Assembly (NCBI GenBank): GCA_030706565.1
Contig: JAUZOH010000003.1
Coordinates: 1-34,431 of the forward strand
DNA from: Bacteroidota bacterium
GTDB taxonomy: Bacteria > Bacteroidota > Bacteroidia > Bacteroidales > JAUZOH01
Direction: 5' to 3'
DNA: 34,431 nt
Every line of letters starts with the position of its first letter. Within the stretch, counting starts at the first letter, position 1. Below the pieces are notes generated by a model, which was not told the origin of the DNA, did not search any database, and saw only the letters and a list, made by a program, of their open reading frames with translations. The position numbers and the translations under genes were made by a program. Shown here piece by piece: positions 18,336-28,195 of the stretch.

Positions 18336-21300
18336 TTAAGAATTTATACTTTTCTGGCTTTTAGATTTGGATTTACTTTTGAAAGGATAAGAAAAATTCA
18401 GAATTTTTTTAAAGTTTTCAAAATATAAAGTGATATAAAAAAGCAAAGTAAATATCCATATTATAGTCATATTAAACGAATAGGTGTCAAAAAAGTGGCC
18501 TAAAAAATGCTTCCTGGGTGCATAAAAATGAGCCCTGATATCGAGTAAACCGCATACGGAAGGATCTTCATAAACAGGGTCTACCTGTTGAACCAGTTGA
18601 TGGTTATATTCAATAATTTTGTTTTTCTCATATACCTTCCTCACTGCATCCGAAACGCTTTCATTCTGGTAATCATTTTTCATTTGCTTGTAAACTTCAG
18701 GTTTAGTTTGCATCAGATAATTGATCATATTGTTTTTCTCAGAATTGGCTTTTTGAAATTCTTTTGAATAGAAACTGGCAAGATTATCCAGGTAAACCTT
18801 AACGGACTGTGCAATTTGCGTGTTAAATGACTGTGGATTCAGCTTTTCCGGATCAGGAGCCGGCACCGGCACCATTTTTTTCTGATTGGCAATTTCATTT
18901 TTCAGCAATAGCAGAGCATTGGCACTCTTATTGATTTTGTTTGAAGATTGAAGTTCTGAACTTACCTGGTCAAAACGTTTGCTGAGTTCAGGGACATAAT
19001 GGACCTGCTTGAAATCGGCAGCACTTTCAAGTTTTTCAACATCGTAAAAGGTCTTTTCAAACTCATTGTCCTTATATTGGTGTACCATTAATGCTTCGTA
19101 CGACCATTTGGTAACCATAAGGTCGGCAATAACCGGAACTTTACCCACACTGCTTATGTTTCGGTTGAGTTTGTCGAAGCTGAACATGGCTCCGCTTAGC
19201 ATCATCATGGGAATCATCAGAAGGGGTATCAGGATATAAATGGTGACTGCACTGTTGAACGAGGCCGAAACATTTAATCCCAGCATATTGGCAAAAGCTG
19301 CCGTCGAAAAGAGTGCAAACCAATAGGCAAAAGTCATTCCTTTTATTCCCAGAATAGTATTGGCTATCAATACGAACGTTATACACTGTATTGCAGAGAT
19401 GACAAAGAGGATCAAAATTTTAGCGGCCAGGTAAGCCGACCGGCTGAGGTTCAGGAACTCTTCCCTTTTTAATATCTTTCTATCCCTGAATATTTCTTCC
19501 GCACTGATGGTCAGTCCCAGGAATAAGGCAACAATCAGCGCCATGAAAATATAAATAGGTATATTCTCGTTTTCACGGAAGATATACACATTGGATGTAG
19601 GATCGGCAATATACCTGATCACATAAGCCAGGATCAATCCAAGTATAGGTGCCTCAAGCAAATTCAGTGCGATATATTGTTTATTGCTGATTTTGGAAAG
19701 GAAGTCACGAATACTGTATATTTTGAACTGCCTGAACCAGTTGGGAATATTCAGCGTCTTGGGAGGTGCCTCCTTTACCTGTTCGACTTTTTCGGATTTC
19801 AGGTTATTCCGGTAATATTCTTCCCACTTCTGGGGGCTAACTTTTCGTTGGTTGGTGTAACGGCCAAATTCATCGACCACCTTGGCTTCAATGATGTTGA
19901 AAATTAGCTCCGGATTGACATTGCCGCAGGTAGGACATTCACCTACTTCACTGTTTATCTGGGCGTCAATTTTCTTAAAGTACATCACTGCCTCCACAGG
20001 ATTACCGTAATAAATCATGTATCCACCTGTATCCAGGATTATGATCCGGTCGAACATTTTGTATATCTCGCTGGAAGGTTGATGGATGACTACAAAAATA
20101 AGTTTGCCTTTTAAAGCAAGTTCCCGGAGAAGGTCCATCACATTTTCCGAATCGCGGGAAGAAAGGCCTGAGGTAGGTTCATCAACAAAAAGGATGGAAG
20201 GTTCGCGGATCAACTCCAGGGCAATATTCAACCGCTTGCGCTGGCCACCGCTGATTGTTTTGTTCAGGGCTGATCCTACTTTCAGGTTGGCATAATCAAG
20301 CAAGCCCAGACTGGCCAGGGTTTTATTGACCAGCCCTTCAATTTCCCCTTCGGATTTGTCCCTGAAGCATAGTTTAGCGTTGTAATACAGGTTTTCAAAG
20401 ACAGTAAGCTCTTCTATCAGTAAATCATCCTGGGGGATGAGCCCGATAACTCCGTCAAGTTGTTCTTTTTGAGTAGCCAGGTTGATCCCGTTGATCAGCA
20501 CTTCACCTTTTGAAGGGGGTTCATTACCTGCCAAAACATTAAGCAGGGTGGTTTTGCCGGCACCGCTTGCACCCATAATACCGATCAGTCTTCCTTGCTT
20601 TTCGGAGAAGCTAACGTCTCTGATGCCTAAATTCCCATTGGGAAAGGCATAATCAATGTGGTTGACTTCGAACGAAACATGGGCAGATGTGGTATCAGCA
20701 AGGAAATGGGCTACAACATCGCTGTAATAAACAGGTTTGCCTTTTGGCAATTTGATGGCACTGCCGCTGGCAAATAAATTGATGCTGCGTTGAGCCAGTC
20801 CTAAACCGTTGAGGAATAAGTCCTCGTTACCGGTATATTTTAAAAAATAAAGTTCAACACTGGGAACCCTAAGGATGCATATACTGCCATCAAGTTTCTC
20901 TGTCTGCAAATGCTTGGTGGGTAAATACGACTCATCCTTGTCGTTGATGACCAGGATGTTGTTGCTGTCAAATTCAACGGGTTCATCCTTGATAACAAAA
21001 TTCTCAATATTATTGAATTCTTCCTTTGAAACATTAAAAACTTCAGCCACTGTATGGATGATAGCCATCCGCTGGTCTGAAAATTTCCTGTCGGCATTGA
21101 CCAGTTCAAACAAACGGGCCAGGACTACAACTTTTTGTTCCTGGTTTAGGGTTTTGTTTATTTTTTTACAAAGCCCCAGAATCTTAACGGAATCTTTGAC
21201 CGAAGTAAGTTTTACTTTAGCGGCAGAAACGTTTTCGGCTGAAGTTTTATTTGATCCGGCAAATTTATCGAATAAGGCAATATATTCCTTAACTGCCTCA

Positions 21301-21422
21301 ACATCAAGCTGTCTGTCCAGAAAGGAAATCACAAATTCTCTTTCATGCGACTCCACCCCCTCATCTTGTTTGGCGATGATAGCAAAAAGCTGCATTAAAG
21401 CCTTTAGTATCTCTTCACTCAT
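18336..21422 (-). CDS. ABCG-type ABC transporter with TerB-like N-terminal domain
   Basis: This 1028-residue protein joins an ATPase to an ABC-2 permease in the ABCG/White order. Residues about 1-145 form an acidic helical region resembling TerB-like tellurite-resistance domains. A beta-rich linker follows (about 150-245). The ATPase has Walker A GASGAGKT at 284-291, signature SGGQ at 391-394, Walker B LFVDEP at 411-416 and the switch His447 in VVIHQPSS. A possible half zinc site CPTCG lies at 496-500. Membrane helices begin near residue 590 (YIALNLLEAPILGLILAYVI) and continue to about 770. A long soluble helical insertion follows (about 780-965) before the last transmembrane segment near the C-terminus. 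It follows siaC by 55 bp. Substrate is unknown; ABCG-type proteins are usually exporters of hydrophobic compounds. Confidence 0.88.
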   Translation of the reverse strand: MSEEILKALMQLFAIIAKQDEGVESHEREFVISFLDRQLDVEAVKEYIALFDKFAGSNKTSAENVSAAKVKLTSVKDSVKILGLCKKINKTLNQEQKVVVLARLFELVNADRKFSDQRMAIIHTVAEVFNVSKEEFNNIENFVIKDEPVEFDSNNILVINDKDESYLPTKHLQTEKLDGSICILRVPSVELYFLKYTGNEDLFLNGLGLAQRSINLFASGSAIKLPKGKPVYYSDVVAHFLADTTSAHVSFEVNHIDYAFPNGNLGIRDVSFSEKQGRLIGIMGASGAGKTTLLNVLAGNEPPSKGEVLINGINLATQKEQLDGVIGLIPQDDLLIEELTVFENLYYNAKLCFRDKSEGEIEGLVNKTLASLGLLDYANLKVGSALNKTISGGQRKRLNIALELIREPSILFVDEPTSGLSSRDSENVMDLLRELALKGKLIFVVIHQPSSEIYKMFDRIIILDTGGYMIYYGNPVEAVMYFKKIDAQINSEVGECPTCGNVNPELIFNIIEAKVVDEFGRYTNQRKVSPQKWEEYYRNNLKSEKVEQVKEAPPKTLNIPNWFRQFKIYSIRDFLSKISNKQYIALNLLEAPILGLILAYVIRYIADPTSNVYIFRENENIPIYIFMALIVALFLGLTISAEEIFRDRKILKREEFLNLSRSAYLAAKILILFVISAIQCITFVLIANTILGIKGMTFAYWFALFSTAAFANMLGLNVSASFNSAVTIYILIPLLMIPMMMLSGAMFSFDKLNRNISSVGKVPVIADLMVTKWSYEALMVHQYKDNEFEKTFYDVEKLESAADFKQVHYVPELSKRFDQVSSELQSSNKINKSANALLLLKNEIANQKKMVPVPAPDPEKLNPQSFNTQIAQSVKVYLDNLASFYSKEFQKANSEKNNMINYLMQTKPEVYKQMKNDYQNESVSDAVRKVYEKNKIIEYNHQLVQQVDPVYEDPSVCGLLDIRAHFYAPRKHFLGHFFDTYSFNMTIIWIFTLLFYITLYFENFKKILNFSYPFKSKSKSKSQKSINS

Positions 21423-21477
21423 TGTTCAGTTTGTGTTACAAATTTGTAAATATATTGCCAAAATGAAGAAATAACGA

Positions 21478-21858
21478 TTATTCGGAGTATTCGATTTGTT
21501 CGAATGGGACATCGACAATATCAGCATATTCTTCACCGGCTTCCTTCATATCTTCATCATCATCCGGATAATGCCATTTTACCAGCACTTCATTCCCGTT
21601 TTGTTTCATGACTTCAAGTTTCATTAAAACATCGAGAAGTAGCTTTGATGAAGCGGTATTGAAATATTCAAGTTTGAAATTGAATGTGGTTACAGGATTC
21701 GGATGTTTGGTATATTCATCCAGCCAGTTAAGGATAGGGTCGTAAAATAGAGTAACATCTTCCGGCAGCGAACGGCCGGAAATTTCAAAAATATCATTGC
21801 CTGCATCCAAAACTACATTTGGAGTATCTTCAGTACCAGCAATTTTTATGATATCCAT
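21478..21858 (-). CDS. siaC: SiaC-like regulatory phosphoprotein (DUF1987)
   Basis: This 126-residue protein matches the SiaC/DUF1987 family: small, acidic, with FYDPILNWLDEY near 38-49 and KLEYFNTASSKLLLDVL near 62-78. The Thr in YFNTAS is residue 68, the position reported as the phosphosite of Pseudomonas aeruginosa SiaC, where SiaB phosphorylates and SiaA dephosphorylates it. There, unphosphorylated SiaC activates the diguanylate cyclase SiaD. No GGDEF protein is encoded here, so the downstream target must differ or lie elsewhere. The gene is 11 bp after siaB and 55 bp before the ABC transporter. Family is confident; the target is unknown. Confidence 0.88.
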   Translation of the reverse strand: MDIIKIAGTEDTPNVVLDAGNDIFEISGRSLPEDVTLFYDPILNWLDEYTKHPNPVTTFNFKLEYFNTASSKLLLDVLMKLEVMKQNGNEVLVKWHYPDDDEDMKEAGEEYADIVDVPFEQIEYSE

Positions 21859-21869
21859 AGCTCGTTAAT

Positions 21870-22451
21870 TTATAAGTTTCTTGAAATGGTTGAAGTTAAC
21901 AAAAAGAAGGATGTTTCATCATTAATTGGTAAAAAATGATATTGGAGATTTTTACCCGTTTTTCTTTTGATATCAATGAAACCTAAACCCGCTCCCTGTT
22001 TATCAGAAAGGTGTCCTTCTTTAATCTGTTTCTTGTATAATTCTGTAAGTTCTTCTTTATCAAGGCTGTTGATATGCTCCAGCATATTTTTCAAATCATT
22101 GATTTTAGAATTTTCCACAGCATTTCCTGTAGTTACATTGTATTCATCCTCCCCTTTGCTGACTAAGAAAATGCCTCTGCCTGCATAAATAAAATTTCCA
22201 GAGGAAAAATCTTCAGCATGTTTGCTGATATTTTGCAAACATTCGACCATAACGTGGAAAACCTTTTTTTGTACGGTACCCGATTCTGCATCTTTGGCCA
22301 TATTCGATTCAGTCAATGAAGTGAAGGCTTTGGTTATCTGGTGTGTGATTTCACCTTCATACACTAAAGATATTTCGTGTGCTTTCATGGATTTGTAAAA
22401 ATCATATACAAATTCCAAAAATCCTTTTACATCATCTTTATTACTGTCCAT
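21870..22451 (-). CDS. siaB: SiaB-like protein kinase (DUF6272)
   Basis: This 193-residue protein is a GHKL-fold kinase of the SiaB type, expected to phosphorylate the SiaC-like protein encoded next. The N-box is VFHVMVECLQNISKHAE, with Glu70 and Asn74, and a G-box-like GAGLGFIDIKRKTG lies near residues 154-167. There is no receiver, HAMP or transmembrane segment, and no histidine phosphoacceptor domain, as expected for an anti-sigma-factor-like kinase in a partner switch. It starts 27 bp after the PP2C phosphatase gene and ends 11 bp before siaC. The order phosphatase-kinase-substrate is the same as siaA-siaB-siaC of Pseudomonas. Confidence 0.85.
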   Translation of the reverse strand: MDSNKDDVKGFLEFVYDFYKSMKAHEISLVYEGEITHQITKAFTSLTESNMAKDAESGTVQKKVFHVMVECLQNISKHAEDFSSGNFIYAGRGIFLVSKGEDEYNVTTGNAVENSKINDLKNMLEHINSLDKEELTELYKKQIKEGHLSDKQGAGLGFIDIKRKTGKNLQYHFLPINDETSFFLLTSTISRNL

Positions 22452-22478
22452 AAGTTAAAATGATTTAAAAAATATTGT

Positions 22479-25091
22479 TTAAAATTCAATTCCGATTAGT
22501 AATACATCATCAATTTGTTTGGTTTTCCCCTGCCATTCATCAAAATCCCTGGCAAATAAATTATTATATTCATCCATGGAGTAAGAATTATGGGTTAAAA
22601 TATTTTCCCTGACCCTTTGGGGGGAATATTTCTTCAGTTTAGGGCCACCCAACTGATCGGTCAGTCCATCCGAGAAAAAGAAGATTTTATCACCAGGCAT
22701 CAGTTTTATCAGGTGATCGGTAAAATCAGCTTCAGGTTTCCCGGAATTGGGAATACCCCCTATAGCTTTCCGGTCACCTTTATATTCAGTCAGCTCATTA
22801 TTGCGGACATGATAGAGAGGACGGTGTGCCCCGGCAAAATGCATTTCCTGTTTGGCCAGATTTATTTTACATAAGGCAAGGTCCATTCCGTCGCGGGCAT
22901 CAGCGTTTAACCTGTCCTGTTTAAGGGTGGTTCTGACCCCTTTGTGCAACATGTCGCATACTTCGGACGCTGTCAGGTCCCTGGGATGGTCAACTATATT
23001 GTTCAGTATGAAATAACCCACAAAAGAAAGCAATGCCCCGGGTACACCATGGCCGGTGCAATCCACCACGGCCAGGTAAAGGTCATTATCCTTGGCAAAA
23101 AACCAGGGAAAATCTCCGCTTACAACATCCCTGGGTTTATAATACATGAATGATTTGGGAAGATATTTTTGAATCAGACGGGTATCAGGCAAAATGGATG
23201 ATTGAATATGTTGTGCATAGTTGATGCTGTCTTCTATTTTCCGGTTTTTACCCTGTATTTCCTGTTCAATTCGTTTTGTTTCGGTAATGTCGTGGCCAAT
23301 AAAAAGGATGGTTTCCAATTCACTTTCATTAAACTCGGGGATGGCATCAATACTTAGAAAACGGTTCATGCTTTTCTCCCCGGCTTTTAGGGAAATGGTG
23401 AGCTGGGTATTTGTTTTCTTGGGTAAGTTTTTAATTTTATTGGTCGTTTCTTCGAAATATTCTGAGAAAACAGCAGGTATGGATTTGTCTTTAATTGTCC
23501 TGCCAGCTAAATCTGCAGGCCTTAATCCTATATAATCCTCTACTACCGGGTTTGAATAATAGAAAATGCCTGAAGTATTCAGTCTTATGATCATGTCTAG
23601 CGAATTTTCAGAGAGCGACTGCATTTTGGTGCGCATGCGCTCTTCCTTTTCCGCTCTTTTGCGCTCGGTGATATCCCGTGAGTTCAGAATGATGCCATGT
23701 ATGGCGTTGCCATTCAATAAATTACGGCCCGTACATTCAAGGAAGATTTTATCCCCATTGCTTTTTAAAAAGGAATATTGAAGGGTTTGGGTTTCCTGAG
23801 GTTTTTCCAGCAGAGTATGAAGCATAGCCTTCAGATCCGATTCTCCTTTGCTGGTCAGTCTTTCCAGATTTTTACCCTGCATCATTTCTTCGGAACTAAA
23901 ACCCAGAATTTTCTTAACCGAAGGGCTTATAAAAGTCATTTTTAGTTCTTTATCATAAATGGAAATGATCTCGGAAGCATTTTCCAGCAAGGAATGAAGC
24001 CTTTTCTGGGCATTTTCAACTTCAAGCACCTGAGACTCCAGTTTTTTATTTGAGAATTCCAGCTCTTCCTGGGTTGCCCTCATTTCTTCTGCACTCTGAC
24101 GAAGTTCTTCTTCATTTTCCTGAAGTTCTTCGGTCATTTGCTGAGATTCCTGTAGTAATTTTTCTGTCCGCTGGTTAACCTGAAGGTTAAAAATTGTACG
24201 GGCAATAATTTCGCCCAGTTCTTTCAGGAAAATTCTGGTTACCTTGTTTATTTCAGGTTCCAGTGAAGCGAACTCCAGGACGCCCTGTAGTTTCTCGTCG
24301 CTGATCAGGGGAATGATCAGCAAACTTTGAGGCTTTTGATCACCTAAAATACCGGAGGTAATGGAAACATAATCATCCGGTATTTCAGTGCGGTAGATGC
24401 TATCCATTTCGTAGCCGCATTCACCTACAAGGCCCTGGCCGATCTTAAATTCCTGTTGAACGTATTTGCGCCGGTTGTATGCATAAGTGGCTATATTGGT
24501 AAGCGTTTTATGGTCTTCATCATATATATACATGGCACCCTGTGTTACTTTGATGTATCTGATGAGGTTTACAATAACATCATAAGCCAAATCCTCAAGG
24601 CGGCTATGCATTCTAAGAATGTTTGCAATAATTTCTTTTCCTTCAGCAATCCATTTCTGTTCTTTTTCCTTTTGGGAGTTGGCTAAAAGATTATCGCGCA
24701 TGGCTACGAATGATTGACTGAGCAAATCGTTCTGCCCGTCCTGAATTTCTATGCCATAATTTCCTTTTCCGATTTGTTGGGCAATCCAGGCATTTTTTTC
24801 TCTCTCCTGGGCAATTTGTTTGATGTTTTTTTCAAATTTCAGTTGAACAAATTGAATTTTTTGAGTGAAGATATAAGTAACAATTCCGGCCAGTACAGGA
24901 ATGAAATCAATGATGAATAAGGCAGGTATTGAATGATGCATGTGGAGAATTCCACGGAAAGTGCAACTGAAATGATTGATTCCCATTTCAGTGATCCAGG
25001 CGATAATCGGGAAAATAAGGCTCAATACTATTACAGAAATAGTAATGTTATTTCCTGCGATATTCTGCAACTTTTTAAGGTATCTGGACAT
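22479..25091 (-). CDS. Membrane GAF-PAS-PAS-PP2C protein phosphatase (SiaA/RsbU-like)
   Basis: This 870-residue sensor phosphatase should dephosphorylate the SiaC-like protein and thereby reverse SiaB. Two membrane segments lie at about residues 16-35 and 55-76. A linker, a GAF domain at about 160-303, a Glu/Gln-rich coiled coil at about 305-367, and two PAS domains (about 368-480 and 485-605) follow. The C-terminal SpoIIE-type PP2C domain (about 625-870) keeps the metal-site acids: D660 in VVSGDF, D677 in VVDCTGHGVPGALLS, D808 in FFSDGLTDQLGG and the D861/D862 pair. Pseudomonas SiaA instead carries a periplasmic sensor and HAMP, so input here is clearly different. It lies 28 bp after the GAF gene and 27 bp before siaB. 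The ligands of the GAF and PAS domains are unknown. Confidence 0.9.
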   Translation of the reverse strand: MSRYLKKLQNIAGNNITISVIVLSLIFPIIAWITEMGINHFSCTFRGILHMHHSIPALFIIDFIPVLAGIVTYIFTQKIQFVQLKFEKNIKQIAQEREKNAWIAQQIGKGNYGIEIQDGQNDLLSQSFVAMRDNLLANSQKEKEQKWIAEGKEIIANILRMHSRLEDLAYDVIVNLIRYIKVTQGAMYIYDEDHKTLTNIATYAYNRRKYVQQEFKIGQGLVGECGYEMDSIYRTEIPDDYVSITSGILGDQKPQSLLIIPLISDEKLQGVLEFASLEPEINKVTRIFLKELGEIIARTIFNLQVNQRTEKLLQESQQMTEELQENEEELRQSAEEMRATQEELEFSNKKLESQVLEVENAQKRLHSLLENASEIISIYDKELKMTFISPSVKKILGFSSEEMMQGKNLERLTSKGESDLKAMLHTLLEKPQETQTLQYSFLKSNGDKIFLECTGRNLLNGNAIHGIILNSRDITERKRAEKEERMRTKMQSLSENSLDMIIRLNTSGIFYYSNPVVEDYIGLRPADLAGRTIKDKSIPAVFSEYFEETTNKIKNLPKKTNTQLTISLKAGEKSMNRFLSIDAIPEFNESELETILFIGHDITETKRIEQEIQGKNRKIEDSINYAQHIQSSILPDTRLIQKYLPKSFMYYKPRDVVSGDFPWFFAKDNDLYLAVVDCTGHGVPGALLSFVGYFILNNIVDHPRDLTASEVCDMLHKGVRTTLKQDRLNADARDGMDLALCKINLAKQEMHFAGAHRPLYHVRNNELTEYKGDRKAIGGIPNSGKPEADFTDHLIKLMPGDKIFFFSDGLTDQLGGPKLKKYSPQRVRENILTHNSYSMDEYNNLFARDFDEWQGKTKQIDDVLLIGIEF

Positions 25092-25119
25092 AGACTCTTT
25101 ACTTTTACTTATTTATATT

Positions 25120-25914
25120 TTAATTTTTCAGTGCATAACCAATTTTTTCTCCAAGTTGGGAAAAAACATTTTCCATTTGCTTGTCAAAGGGCTTGAAAGA
25201 AGCCAATTCCATAACGCCTATAGTTTCCTTTTCAAGGATAATGGGTACAATCAATAAATTTTTTGGTGTACCTTTCCCCAAGCCTGACAAAATGGTCATA
25301 TAACCTTGAGGAACATCATTAATATTCAGCAACTTCTTATTTTTAGCTGCCTGGCCTGTCAATGTTTCCCCTAATTTAAAAGCTTTGGGTTTTTCTTCCG
25401 AAAAATATGCATATTCAGCGATAGGACTAAACAGGTTGGTCTGTTTTTCAAAGTCGTAGAAAACTCCCTGAACAATGTTGAATTCCTTAGCAATATTAAT
25501 TAAAATTTTTTCAGCATATTGCTCCTGCGTTAAATTTTCTTTGGAAGGCAGGATGTGTTTTGAGATTTCCTGAATATCCACAGTTTCTTTTGTAACATTC
25601 CGAACCTCATTATTTTGTTCGCCCTCAGTTTTTTTTGCAAGTTGAGATTGTAGATCACTGATCCTGGAAGCTAATCCCTTAATATTTTTTTTATTCTTGC
25701 TTTCTGAAAGTAAATAAAGGACAAACATTAAAATTCCAAGAAATGAAACTGTAACCAGATATAAGTATGATTGGGTTTTAGCAGGATTAGCACCTGTATT
25801 CAGCCATGCATTGTGGTTGCTTGAAAAAAGCAGGAAAATAAAGCATAAAAAAAGAAACAAAATTAAATAACTGATTCTTCTGATTTTTCCTAGGTTGTTC
25901 ATTGTAAATTTCAT
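25120..25914 (-). CDS. Two-TM membrane protein with C-terminal GAF domain
   Basis: This 264-residue protein has two membrane segments (about residues 13-30 and 48-68), a polar, partly coiled-coil stretch (SDLQSQLAKKTEGEQNNEV) and a C-terminal GAF domain (about 120-262). There is no output domain. The GAF resembles that of the adjacent phosphatase: compare NLLIVPIILEKETIGVMELA here with SLLIIPLISDEKLQGVLEFA there. The start overlaps the cheB stop in an ATGA arrangement, so translation is probably coupled. It could be a sensory subunit that pairs with the phosphatase, or a competitor for the same ligand; both are inference. Confidence 0.8.
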   Translation of the reverse strand: MKFTMNNLGKIRRISYLILFLFLCFIFLLFSSNHNAWLNTGANPAKTQSYLYLVTVSFLGILMFVLYLLSESKNKKNIKGLASRISDLQSQLAKKTEGEQNNEVRNVTKETVDIQEISKHILPSKENLTQEQYAEKILINIAKEFNIVQGVFYDFEKQTNLFSPIAEYAYFSEEKPKAFKLGETLTGQAAKNKKLLNINDVPQGYMTILSGLGKGTPKNLLIVPIILEKETIGVMELASFKPFDKQMENVFSQLGEKIGYALKN

Positions 25915-26468
25915 TTTAGTTTAAGAAGGAAGTCAATAATTCCGCTGGTTTTAAGTACATAATCTACAGGAGAAGTATTGATTGCTGCTTCTGTCATGGT
26001 TTTTACCTGGCAGTCCAAGGGATCCTGCACAATAGTAAGTCCTTTCAGGTCATGAATTTTTTTTATTCCCAGTGCTCCATCTTTATTGGCACCGCTGAGG
26101 ATAATTCCCACCAATCCTTCTCTATATGCCTGTGCAGCAGTAATAAACGACAAGTCTATGGACGGCCGGGAATGGTTAACCTGTTCCTCGGTGGAGAGGG
26201 CAATTCTGTTTCCCAGTTCAATATACATGTGGTAATTGGCTGGGGCAAGGTAAGCCCGTCCTGCTTTGACCAATTCTTTGTCATTGGGCTCTATAACCGG
26301 AATATTTGATTTGATAGAAAGTGCTTCTACAAACCCCGACCGTATATGTTTGAGCCGGTGCAGGCATAAGAAAACGGGTAATGGGAAATTCTCAGGCAGA
26401 GCATTCAGGATTTTTGAAACCACCTGAAAACTTCCAGCCGAACCTCCTATCATTACTGCTTTGTACAT
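25911..26468 (-). CDS. cheB: CheB-type methylesterase catalytic domain, no receiver
   Basis: This 185-residue protein is the catalytic domain of CheB alone, which hydrolyses glutamyl methyl esters or deamidates glutamine in receptor-like helices. The Ser-His-Asp triad is intact: Ser10 in MIGGSAGS, His37 in VFLCLHRLKH and Asp130 in LSGANKDGALG. YLAPANYHMYIE and SRPSIDLSF are further family motifs. The response-regulator receiver domain of canonical CheB is missing, so activity is not controlled by CheA phosphorylation in the usual way. It starts 3 bp after the degenerate CheR gene and overlaps the GAF gene by 4 bases. No chemoreceptor is encoded in the window. Confidence 0.92.
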   Translation of the reverse strand: MYKAVMIGGSAGSFQVVSKILNALPENFPLPVFLCLHRLKHIRSGFVEALSIKSNIPVIEPNDKELVKAGRAYLAPANYHMYIELGNRIALSTEEQVNHSRPSIDLSFITAAQAYREGLVGIILSGANKDGALGIKKIHDLKGLTIVQDPLDCQVKTMTEAAINTSPVDYVLKTSGIIDFLLKLK

Positions 26469-26471
26469 TTT

Positions 26472-27299
26472 TTAATTTTTTTTCTTATAAATACTCTCAC
26501 TGTTGCAAGCCAGGGAAAACCTATCGTCTTCGCCGAGCGATTCTTTTGTCCCAACAATCAGGTACCCTCCGGGTAACAGACAATCATGGAGGATATTCAC
26601 CATTTTCTGTTGCAACTGATTGTTAAAATAGATCATACGGTTGCGGAAGAGGATTAATTTTACTCTTTCGGCAAGATTTTCAAAGCTAACTGTTTGTTTT
26701 ATAAAACTTACATTTTTTAGCAAAGAAATATCCCTGAAAAAACAATTCTCCTTGTTTTGATAGTAGGAGGAAAGATCGCTTTTCCCGTTGAAGCGTTTGT
26801 AATTATCACTACTGATATTTACTTTGGCCGGATTAAAAATCCCACTTTTCATCTGTTCTATAGCTTTTTGACTCAGGCCTGAAACAATGATTTCTGCTTT
26901 GTCCAAAGCATCCATTTCTTTGAGAACGATTGTCAGCGTGAAAAGTTCCTCTCCACTGACCGAGTTGGGGATCCAAATTTTCAGGCGGGGACTTTCTTCC
27001 AATAATTGTTTAAGCAAATTATCCCTTAAAAACCTCCATAACGAAGGGTCCCGGAACATCTCCGAAGTGTCTGTGGAAATGTCGCATAAGAACTGATCAA
27101 AAAAAATGGGATCGTTATTGTTTAACCTTGCTTCAAGTAGGTCCGGATATTTTATGTCCTGTTTGACCATGAAATACTCAAGTCTTCGCTTAAATGAAGT
27201 AAGGGCATAATCTGAAAAATCATATTGATAATTTTCCCGGATATTCCTTATGATATTTTTAACATCTACAATTCCTAAATCAATTTCACTGCTATTCAT
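26472..27299 (-). CDS. CheR-like protein with degenerate SAM-binding site
   Basis: This 275-residue protein has the CheR layout: a helical N-terminal domain (YDFSDYALTSFKRRLEYF) and a methyltransferase-like C-terminal domain (ERVKLILFRNRMIYFNNQL, PGGYLIVGTKESL). Part of the active site persists (DTSEMFRDPSLW at about 77-88, like TTELFRDP of its neighbour). The SAM-binding loop, however, reads IPNSVSGEELFT at 110-121 where functional CheR has AGCSTGEE, and the acidic ribose-binding segment reads SGLS at 140-143 instead of TDIN. I infer loss of methyltransferase activity and a possible structural or regulatory role. It lies 26 bp after the canonical cheR and 3 bp before cheB. The frame is open throughout, so it is not a plain pseudogene. 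Confidence 0.85.
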   Translation of the reverse strand: MNSSEIDLGIVDVKNIIRNIRENYQYDFSDYALTSFKRRLEYFMVKQDIKYPDLLEARLNNNDPIFFDQFLCDISTDTSEMFRDPSLWRFLRDNLLKQLLEESPRLKIWIPNSVSGEELFTLTIVLKEMDALDKAEIIVSGLSQKAIEQMKSGIFNPAKVNISSDNYKRFNGKSDLSSYYQNKENCFFRDISLLKNVSFIKQTVSFENLAERVKLILFRNRMIYFNNQLQQKMVNILHDCLLPGGYLIVGTKESLGEDDRFSLACNSESIYKKKN

Positions 27300-27325
27300 T
27301 TACACGACAAATATTTAGAGATAAA

Positions 27326-28195
27326 TCAGGATAATATAAAATGTTCAATGTACTCTTCTTTTTTACAATAGACCAGTCCGTTTTTTTCAAATTTCGAAGC
27401 CATCGGGCCAAGAATTGTTTCGTGAACTCCCAACAATAAAGTTCCGTCCGGATAAAGGTTGTCATATAAAAGCTTAAAAACCTTATTTTGAAGTTCGTAG
27501 TTGAAGTAAATGATTACATTTCGGCAAAGAATGATATCAAACTTAGTATAAAAGATATTTCCATCCTTCACCAGGTCCTGCTTTTTATAAACGGCTTTAT
27601 CCCTTAAAAATTTATTCATAATAATGACATCTTTATCCTGATCAATAGTAAAATAATCCGAATAAGGAATGTCCTTATATTCATCATAATTCAGGGGATT
27701 TTGTTTAATTACCTTATCAAAATTATCGAGGTAGTTGATATTAAACCTGTATTTATAGATCCCTTTTTGGGCGGTTTGAAGTACATCTGCATTTATGTCG
27801 GTGCCATAAATTTTGGCCTTTTCGAGCAATCCGGCTTCTTTGAGCAGGATCATCATTGAATAAACTTCCTGACCGGTAGAACATCCCGCATGCCAAATAT
27901 TTATGGTCTTGTTGTTTTTATATTTGGGGAGAATTTTGTATTTGATGTTTTGCCAAATTTGAGGATCTCGAAAAAGTTCGGTAGTATTGACGGTAATATC
28001 TTTGACTGTTTTTTCTAGGAAAACCGGGTTATTTTTTAACTGCGTCAAAAGATCAGGAAAATCGATTCTGTTATCGGATAATACTTTTGCAATTCTCCTT
28101 TTTAAGGATTTATCACTGTATTCACTCAAATCATAATTTGAAACTTCTTTCAGTAGAGAAAAAAATTGTTGCAATTCCTGGTCCGTTATAATCAT
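27326..28195 (-). CDS. cheR: CheR-type glutamate methyltransferase
   Basis: This 289-residue enzyme transfers methyl groups from SAM to glutamates, normally in the coiled coil of a chemoreceptor. The N-terminal helical domain includes YDLSEYSDKSLKRRIAKVL. The catalytic domain has NTTELFRD at 70-77, SAM loop AGCSTGQEVYS at 103-113, acidic TDIN at 132-135 (Asp133) and FDIILCRNVIIYFNYELQ near the end. All known motifs look intact. It is the first gene of the operon, preceded by a candidate promoter at 28248. No MCP, CheA, CheW or CheY gene is present in the window, so its substrate is unknown. Candidate partners are the coiled-coil proteins downstream. Confidence 0.93.
   Translation of the reverse strand: MIITDQELQQFFSLLKEVSNYDLSEYSDKSLKRRIAKVLSDNRIDFPDLLTQLKNNPVFLEKTVKDITVNTTELFRDPQIWQNIKYKILPKYKNNKTINIWHAGCSTGQEVYSMMILLKEAGLLEKAKIYGTDINADVLQTAQKGIYKYRFNINYLDNFDKVIKQNPLNYDEYKDIPYSDYFTIDQDKDVIIMNKFLRDKAVYKKQDLVKDGNIFYTKFDIILCRNVIIYFNYELQNKVFKLLYDNLYPDGTLLLGVHETILGPMASKFEKNGLVYCKKEEYIEHFILS

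Follow-up and report, generated by a model that had tools for sequence, protein, structure and literature searches.

Why should a gene for a chemotaxis-type methyltransferase whose cofactor site is degraded be kept in frame between an intact cheR and a cheB? The question is raised by positions 26472–27299 of a 34,431-nucleotide stretch of contig JAUZOH010000003.1 from a Bacteroidota bacterium of the order Bacteroidales (assembly GCA_030706565.1); this whole stretch is referred to as the window. The gene and its relatives in other genomes are termed psR, a name introduced here. psR is part of an operon-like row of minus-strand genes at positions 18336–28195:

27326–28195, minus strand: intact cassette CheR, 289 aa (Pfam CheR 7.8e-38; all SAM motifs kept)
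26472–27299, minus strand: psR, a CheR-fold protein with a degraded SAM site, 275 aa (Pfam CheR 7.8e-25)
25911–26468, minus strand: CheB, catalytic domain only and without a receiver, 185 aa (Pfam CheB_methylest only, 7.8e-48)
25120–25914, minus strand: GAF protein with hydrophobic N-terminal segments (TM-GAF), 264 aa (Pfam GAF_2; conserved in the cassette)
22479–25091, minus strand: GAF-coil-PAS-PAS-SpoIIE protein, SiaA-like phosphatase, 870 aa (Pfam SpoIIE, PAS, GAF)
21870–22451, minus strand: SiaB-like kinase (DUF6272; NCBIfam SiaB_fam_kinase 5e-51)
21478–21858, minus strand: SiaC-like phosphoprotein, 126 aa (Pfam SiaC 2.9e-41)
18336–21422, minus strand: TerB-ABC transporter protein, last gene of the cassette (Pfam ABC_tran, ABC2_membrane, TerB), kept in most complete cassettes

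The predicted SpoIIE/PP2C phosphatase, SiaB kinase and SiaC appear to form a partner-switch gene set of the SiaABC type; the SiaA model matches the 870 aa protein at 6e-52, under the model's cut-off. The SiaABC system of Pseudomonas aeruginosa likewise has the phosphatase, the SiaB kinase and the SiaC phosphoprotein in one operon (PMC7647112), but the present cassette joins them to CheR, psR, CheB and TM-GAF, and no SiaD-like cyclase gene was identified in it. This coupling of chemotaxis-type methylation genes with a Sia-type partner switch is found in many Bacteroidales. No chemoreceptor, CheA or CheW was found among the cassette proteins scanned, and the cassette is therefore not a canonical chemotaxis cluster. 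The same genome gives six MCP matches, all on other contigs. Its contig 6 encodes a CheR of canonical type and a CheB with a receiver domain, and shows no MCP match; this second cluster (L062, 1703–9044) also contains an open reading frame that resembles a histidine kinase in sequence, and a Glu-coil GAF-PAS protein. A promoter scan of the region did no better than on shuffled sequence.

The psR open reading frame has no internal stop codons and lies 26 bp from cheR and 3 bp from cheB; the coordinates and gaps given in an earlier sequence-only reading of this DNA were reproduced. Identity to the adjacent CheR is 31%. The PF01739 CheR SAM-binding domain scores 87.9 bits (cut-off 27), above the Pfam threshold, and the 275 aa chain contains CheR domains only, with no CheW fusion. 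The AlphaFold2 model of psR (pLDDT 93.3) has CheR 5ftw as its top PDB match (TM 0.79/0.84). The intact CheR, modeled as a control, gives TM 0.75/0.84 with the same structure, and psR fits equally well, in agreement with the earlier proposal that the fold has been kept. psR is a member of the CheR family both by descent and by fold. With CheR (PF01739/PF03705; 5ftw, 1af7, 5xlx) it shares the fold, the N-terminal helical part, the FRD(P) segment with Arg98, the RN..IY segment with Tyr235 and a gene position beside CheB. It differs from CheR as a clade without the ribose-binding Asp and the first Gly of motif I, and with a signature of its own, FRN[KQR].

The state of the SAM site was assessed by column counts over 76 psR sequences and 73 CheR sequences of the same cassette, from other genomes of the order Bacteroidales. 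Residue numbers were obtained by mapping the alignment onto the Salmonella CheR chain. The positions in the window are:

27051–27053, minus strand: retained Arg83, equivalent to the catalytic Arg98 of Salmonella CheR (76/76 psR)
26946–26972, minus strand: degraded motif I, psR residues 110–118, IPNSVSGEE where CheR has HAGCSTGQE (column counts)
26877–26879, minus strand: position of the ribose-binding Asp (Asp154 in Salmonella CheR), Gly141 in psR (column counts)
26628–26648, minus strand: psR signature F218-R-N-R221..Y224 where CheR has C-R-N-V..Y; Y224 is equivalent to Tyr235 (column counts)

The Asp154 column is acidic in 73/73 of the neighbouring CheRs vs 2/76 psRs. It is variable in psR (S, C, T, V and Y occur), and no acidic substitute near the lost Asp is fixed across the family. 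The first motif-I Gly is present in every CheR (73/73) and in 14/76 psRs, His102 in 72/73 CheRs and in none of the 76 psRs; G104, G108 and D154 are never found all three together (0/76). The second motif-I Gly is kept in 69/76 psRs, and Glu129 in 68/76 with Asp in the remaining 8. The sequence-only reading had set AGCSTGQE against PNSVSGEE and TDIN against SGLS, and these align column for column; its statement that the glycine-rich loop is removed holds for the first Gly but is too strong for the rest, as the window psR keeps G116 and E118 (equivalent to Glu129).

The catalytic side presents a different picture. Arg98 is present in 76/76 psRs, Asn231 in 75/76 and Tyr235 in 65/76, with Phe in 6 more; the window psR keeps both Arg98 and Tyr235, whose catalytic roles in CheR have been described (PMC3447774). 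W88 (76/76), G250 (76/76) and E253 (75/76) are also maintained. Around the RN pair, the preceding Cys is changed to Phe or Tyr in 67/76 psRs and the following Val to Lys, Gln or Arg in 61/76. psR thus has the catalytic Arg98 and Tyr235 of an active CheR and lacks its glycine loop and ribose-binding Asp. The decay is far beyond chance: cofactor columns that are 100% conserved in CheR are eroded in the psRs, and other CheR columns are invariant. psR is almost certainly not a normal methyltransferase, and the case for a dead enzyme is strong; from the residue pattern, it has probably lost SAM binding. Work on the CheR-like domain of CheWS showed that combining E297A with D321A abolished the binding of both SAM and SAH, and that D321A by itself was enough to lose the chemotactic response (PMC10653840). 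By our own pattern matching, E297 and D321 would correspond to Glu129 and Asp154. CheR homologues lacking the conserved catalytic residues are also represented by the N-terminal-TPR CheRs, which are suspected to be inactive (PMC3447774). These lose the catalytic R98 and Y235, whereas psR mostly keeps both, loses the cofactor site and has no TPR.

A first tree groups its 22 psRs in a single clade (99/99), separate from every CheR, and the clade holds in a more widely sampled tree (crown support 98/99). Two members at the base of the clade are less decayed. G417 has retained the Asp, and L082, which belongs to the same class but to a different order, has GCASGEE and an acidic residue. The dN/dS ratio of psR is 0.02–0.18 (same-genus pairs with finite dS), usually above the values for CheR or CheB, and psR is clearly under purifying selection. 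The psRs are an ancient clade in Bacteroidales and no local accident. An assembly or frameshift artefact was considered and is ruled out by the open frame and the conserved clade. That this is a retained, cofactor-dead CheR, as had been proposed, is well supported by the single clade, the single conserved cassette and the purifying selection. Orthologues with intact motifs were to count against that proposal; none occur inside the clade, but in Cytophagales, and in one family of Bacteroidales, the place of psR is taken by a homologue whose motifs are intact.

A near-intact basal relative of psR (L187, 7548–8285, genome G215) stands alone with no adjacent cheB, on a contig that also encodes an intact cheR-cheB pair. 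A single-sequence scan of genome contigs produced no matches and an alignment-based scan did; a plasmid collection gave distant CheRs only, with ≤32% identity among the matches listed.

The neighbourhood of psR points to CheB. The CheB of the cassette has no receiver, and S10, H37 and D130 are invariant in 22 orthologues, i.e. the catalytic triad is kept. At 76/76 loci the gene immediately upstream of CheB is psR, in most cases at ≤10 bp. CheR lies upstream in the same cassette at 69/76 loci and is not adjacent in 7; at 16 loci a gene is inserted between CheR and psR. Two of these inserted genes were scanned, and both encode HAMP-GAF-PAS proteins. Such sensors between cheR and psR (L033, 8874–11528; L034, 5729–8101; and similar ones) have no kinase or MCP output domain.

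Co-occurrence was examined across 295 sampled Bacteroidales genomes. A cassette CheR is found in 100, of which 90 have a cassette CheB, and psR precedes CheB in 88 of these 90. The two psR-less CheB genomes belong to one family (f54) and have an intact CheR in the psR slot; in a cassette of this family (L041, 8129–14466) that CheR is the only one, and two SiaB genes are in tandem. No psR match came from the ten cassette-CheR genomes that lack such a CheB, in a search that a weak psR may escape (one real psR scores 160 bits). In seven of the ten (G006, G413, G510, G008, G415, G353, G547) the CheR neighbourhood was read, and psR and CheB are absent from it; the other three are G468, G515 and G550, of which the first two are incomplete. 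Families f9 and f132 each include one genome with the psR-CheB pair and others that have CheR without it. Joint loss has to be read with the caveat that psR and CheB adjoin, and a single deletion takes out both. The partial correlation of the psR and CheB distance matrices falls from 0.57 to 0.06 once one genus (G013/G419) is removed; this mirror-tree signal came from the single genus and was discarded as support. Because adjacency is invariant and presence and absence are shared, with CheR separable or kept alone, the genomic association suggests a role tied to CheB rather than to CheR. A docking or regulatory role had been a fair inference from the sequence; it was centred on CheR and on a CheR/CheB scaffold, however, and the genomic evidence favours CheB.

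The slot before CheB also bears on the origin of psR. In Cytophagales cassettes (e.g. Rhodocytophaga, Nafulsella, Marivirga) a single intact CheR is directly before CheB. In Bacteroidales psR holds this slot, and the intact CheR upstream belongs to another clade. Further degraded CheRs occur outside the order; each immediately precedes a CheB that is followed by an intact CheR:

L168, 5572–6402: degraded CheR before cheB
L169, 6213–7037: degraded CheR before cheB
L170, 4696–5517: degraded CheR before cheB
L189, 9770–10573: degraded CheR before cheB

These share the Cys to Tyr and Val to Gln changes and have Glu at the Asp position. They are either early psRs or parallel cases: a tree with psR and these sequences (X1) as one group is not rejected (p 0.41), and p-AU is 0.05 when psR is forced to be sister to the Cytophagales single CheR. 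The single CheR in Cytophagales, together with the degraded CheRs before CheB outside the order, suggests a division of labour, in which methylation passed to a second CheR and the old one kept a non-catalytic role tied to CheB.

A candidate substrate is found in the phosphatase, between its GAF and PAS domains:

24036–24167, minus strand: phosphatase coil, residues 309–352, candidate methyl-accepting region (conservation in 44 orthologues)

The coil has Glu pairs at 321/322, 328/329, 335/336 and 342/343, a spacing of exactly seven. In the methylation helices of MCPs, Glu pairs are likewise spaced seven residues apart. Conservation of the coil in the 44 orthologues is 0.77, vs 0.67 overall, the highest among the segments compared. 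Similar coils are present in the inserted sensors and in hybrid proteins linked to CheR-CheB. The phosphatase coil may thus be a CheR/CheB target outside chemoreceptors; this stays a prediction, because coils of this kind occur widely in GAF/PAS proteins. In family f7, where CheB is missing, the coil is eroded in three genomes. That erosion tracks the loss of CheB is suggestive only, since the correlation is spoiled by G028, where psR and CheB are present and the coil is eroded too.

The reading preferred here, with a confidence slightly short of even, is that psR, a pseudoenzyme descended from CheR, has ceased to methylate and would work with the adjacent receiver-less CheB on a Glu coil. SAM binding would be gone, but psR keeps CheR's fold and its acceptor-side residues, by virtue of which recognition of the Glu-rich coil has most likely survived; this is the coil that CheR would methylate, in the phosphatase of SpoIIE type and in the HAMP-GAF-PAS sensors. 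On it psR may dock or position CheB, taking over the targeting or regulation for which this CheB has no receiver. Methyl groups would be added by CheR and taken off by psR together with CheB. The methylation state may in turn tune the phosphatase, which would set SiaC phosphorylation in the manner of SiaA in Pseudomonas (PMC7647112). We infer the binding of psR to CheB and to the coil, the methylation of the coil and its effect on the phosphatase.

Several observations support this reading of psR as a partner of CheB: the loss of the cofactor side with the acceptor side kept in 76 psRs, the invariant adjacency and joint presence and absence with CheB, the recurrence of degraded CheRs before CheB outside the order, a CheB with no receiver yet an intact triad, and the low dN/dS together with a fold score against 5ftw equal to that of CheR. 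The persistence of Glu129 in psR, itself a cofactor residue, counts against it.

A rather unlikely alternative is that psR acts as a decoy or brake, which occupies the coil without methylating it and limits CheR, independently of any contact with CheB. Retention of the acceptor-side residues with the cofactor side gone agrees with this, as does the presence of CheR in the same cassette at most loci; it leaves unexplained why psR is fixed to CheB and vanishes with CheB while CheR remains. It is unlikely that the pocket has been rebuilt for another ligand, making psR a sensor subunit, as in the SAM-sensing, non-catalytic CheR-like domain of the spirochete (Treponema) protein CheWS (PMC10653840), even though the psRs do share a conserved pocket pattern of their own (Pro111, SG[ED]EL, F/Y218, K/Q/R221). 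CheWS is, like psR, a CheR fold used in signalling and reported to be without residues for catalysis. However, its SAM site still has the Gly, Glu and Asp, and it binds SAM, forms a fusion protein with CheW and belongs to receptor arrays, whereas psR is free-standing, goes with CheB and has kept the Glu but lost the first Gly and the Asp, in a column that is variable.

A heterodimer in which psR serves CheR as the non-catalytic subunit is judged improbable. METTL14 of METTL3-METTL14 provides the precedent, a methyltransferase-fold paralogue described as a non-catalytic, RNA-binding and stabilising subunit (PMC13087807), and the cheR and psR genes do occur together at most loci. METTL14 is of an unrelated family with an RNA substrate, whereas psR would pair with a demethylating enzyme; several lineages keep CheR without psR, a sensor gene is often between the two, and the partial correlation of the psR and CheR distance matrices is just 0.09. 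There is very little to be said for psR as a working methyltransferase whose SAM site is just unusual: Arg98, Glu129, Asn231 and Tyr235 are mostly present and the basal relatives G417 and L082 retain an acidic residue, but Asp154 is non-acidic in 74/76 psRs with no acidic residue fixed nearby, and the D321A mutant of CheWS no longer responds to SAM (PMC10653840). That the gene is decaying and about to be lost, as the long branches of psR and its faster evolution than CheR and CheB might indicate, is hardly credible and is already contradicted by a dN/dS well below 1, a frame open in essentially all loci, and an ancient single clade in a fixed slot before CheB.

Inactive CheR-like domains are known already, in CheWS and the N-terminal-TPR CheRs. 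No account was found of a conserved, free-standing pseudo-CheR that appears tied to CheB in an operon of the SiaABC type. The open-licence literature yielded no description of the psR family or the cassette, nor any report of a catalytically dead CheR neighbouring CheB or of SiaABC combined with CheR. A more specific version, held as a tentative and rather doubtful proposal, is that a methyltransferase pseudoenzyme has turned into a dedicated targeting subunit of CheB, and that a receptor-independent CheR/CheB pair reversibly methylates the phosphatase coil and so sets the SiaB/SiaC phospho-switch.

CheR and CheB are ordinarily viewed as a receptor-modifying pair. Here they are found in a partner-switch phosphatase operon without a chemoreceptor and, on the best reading, an old CheR has become a permanent, non-catalytic companion of CheB. 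This may represent a route for a methyltransferase in which the chemistry is given up and recognition is kept. The cassette offers a concrete test case for CheR/CheB methylation of signalling coils outside receptors, in this instance in a phosphatase.
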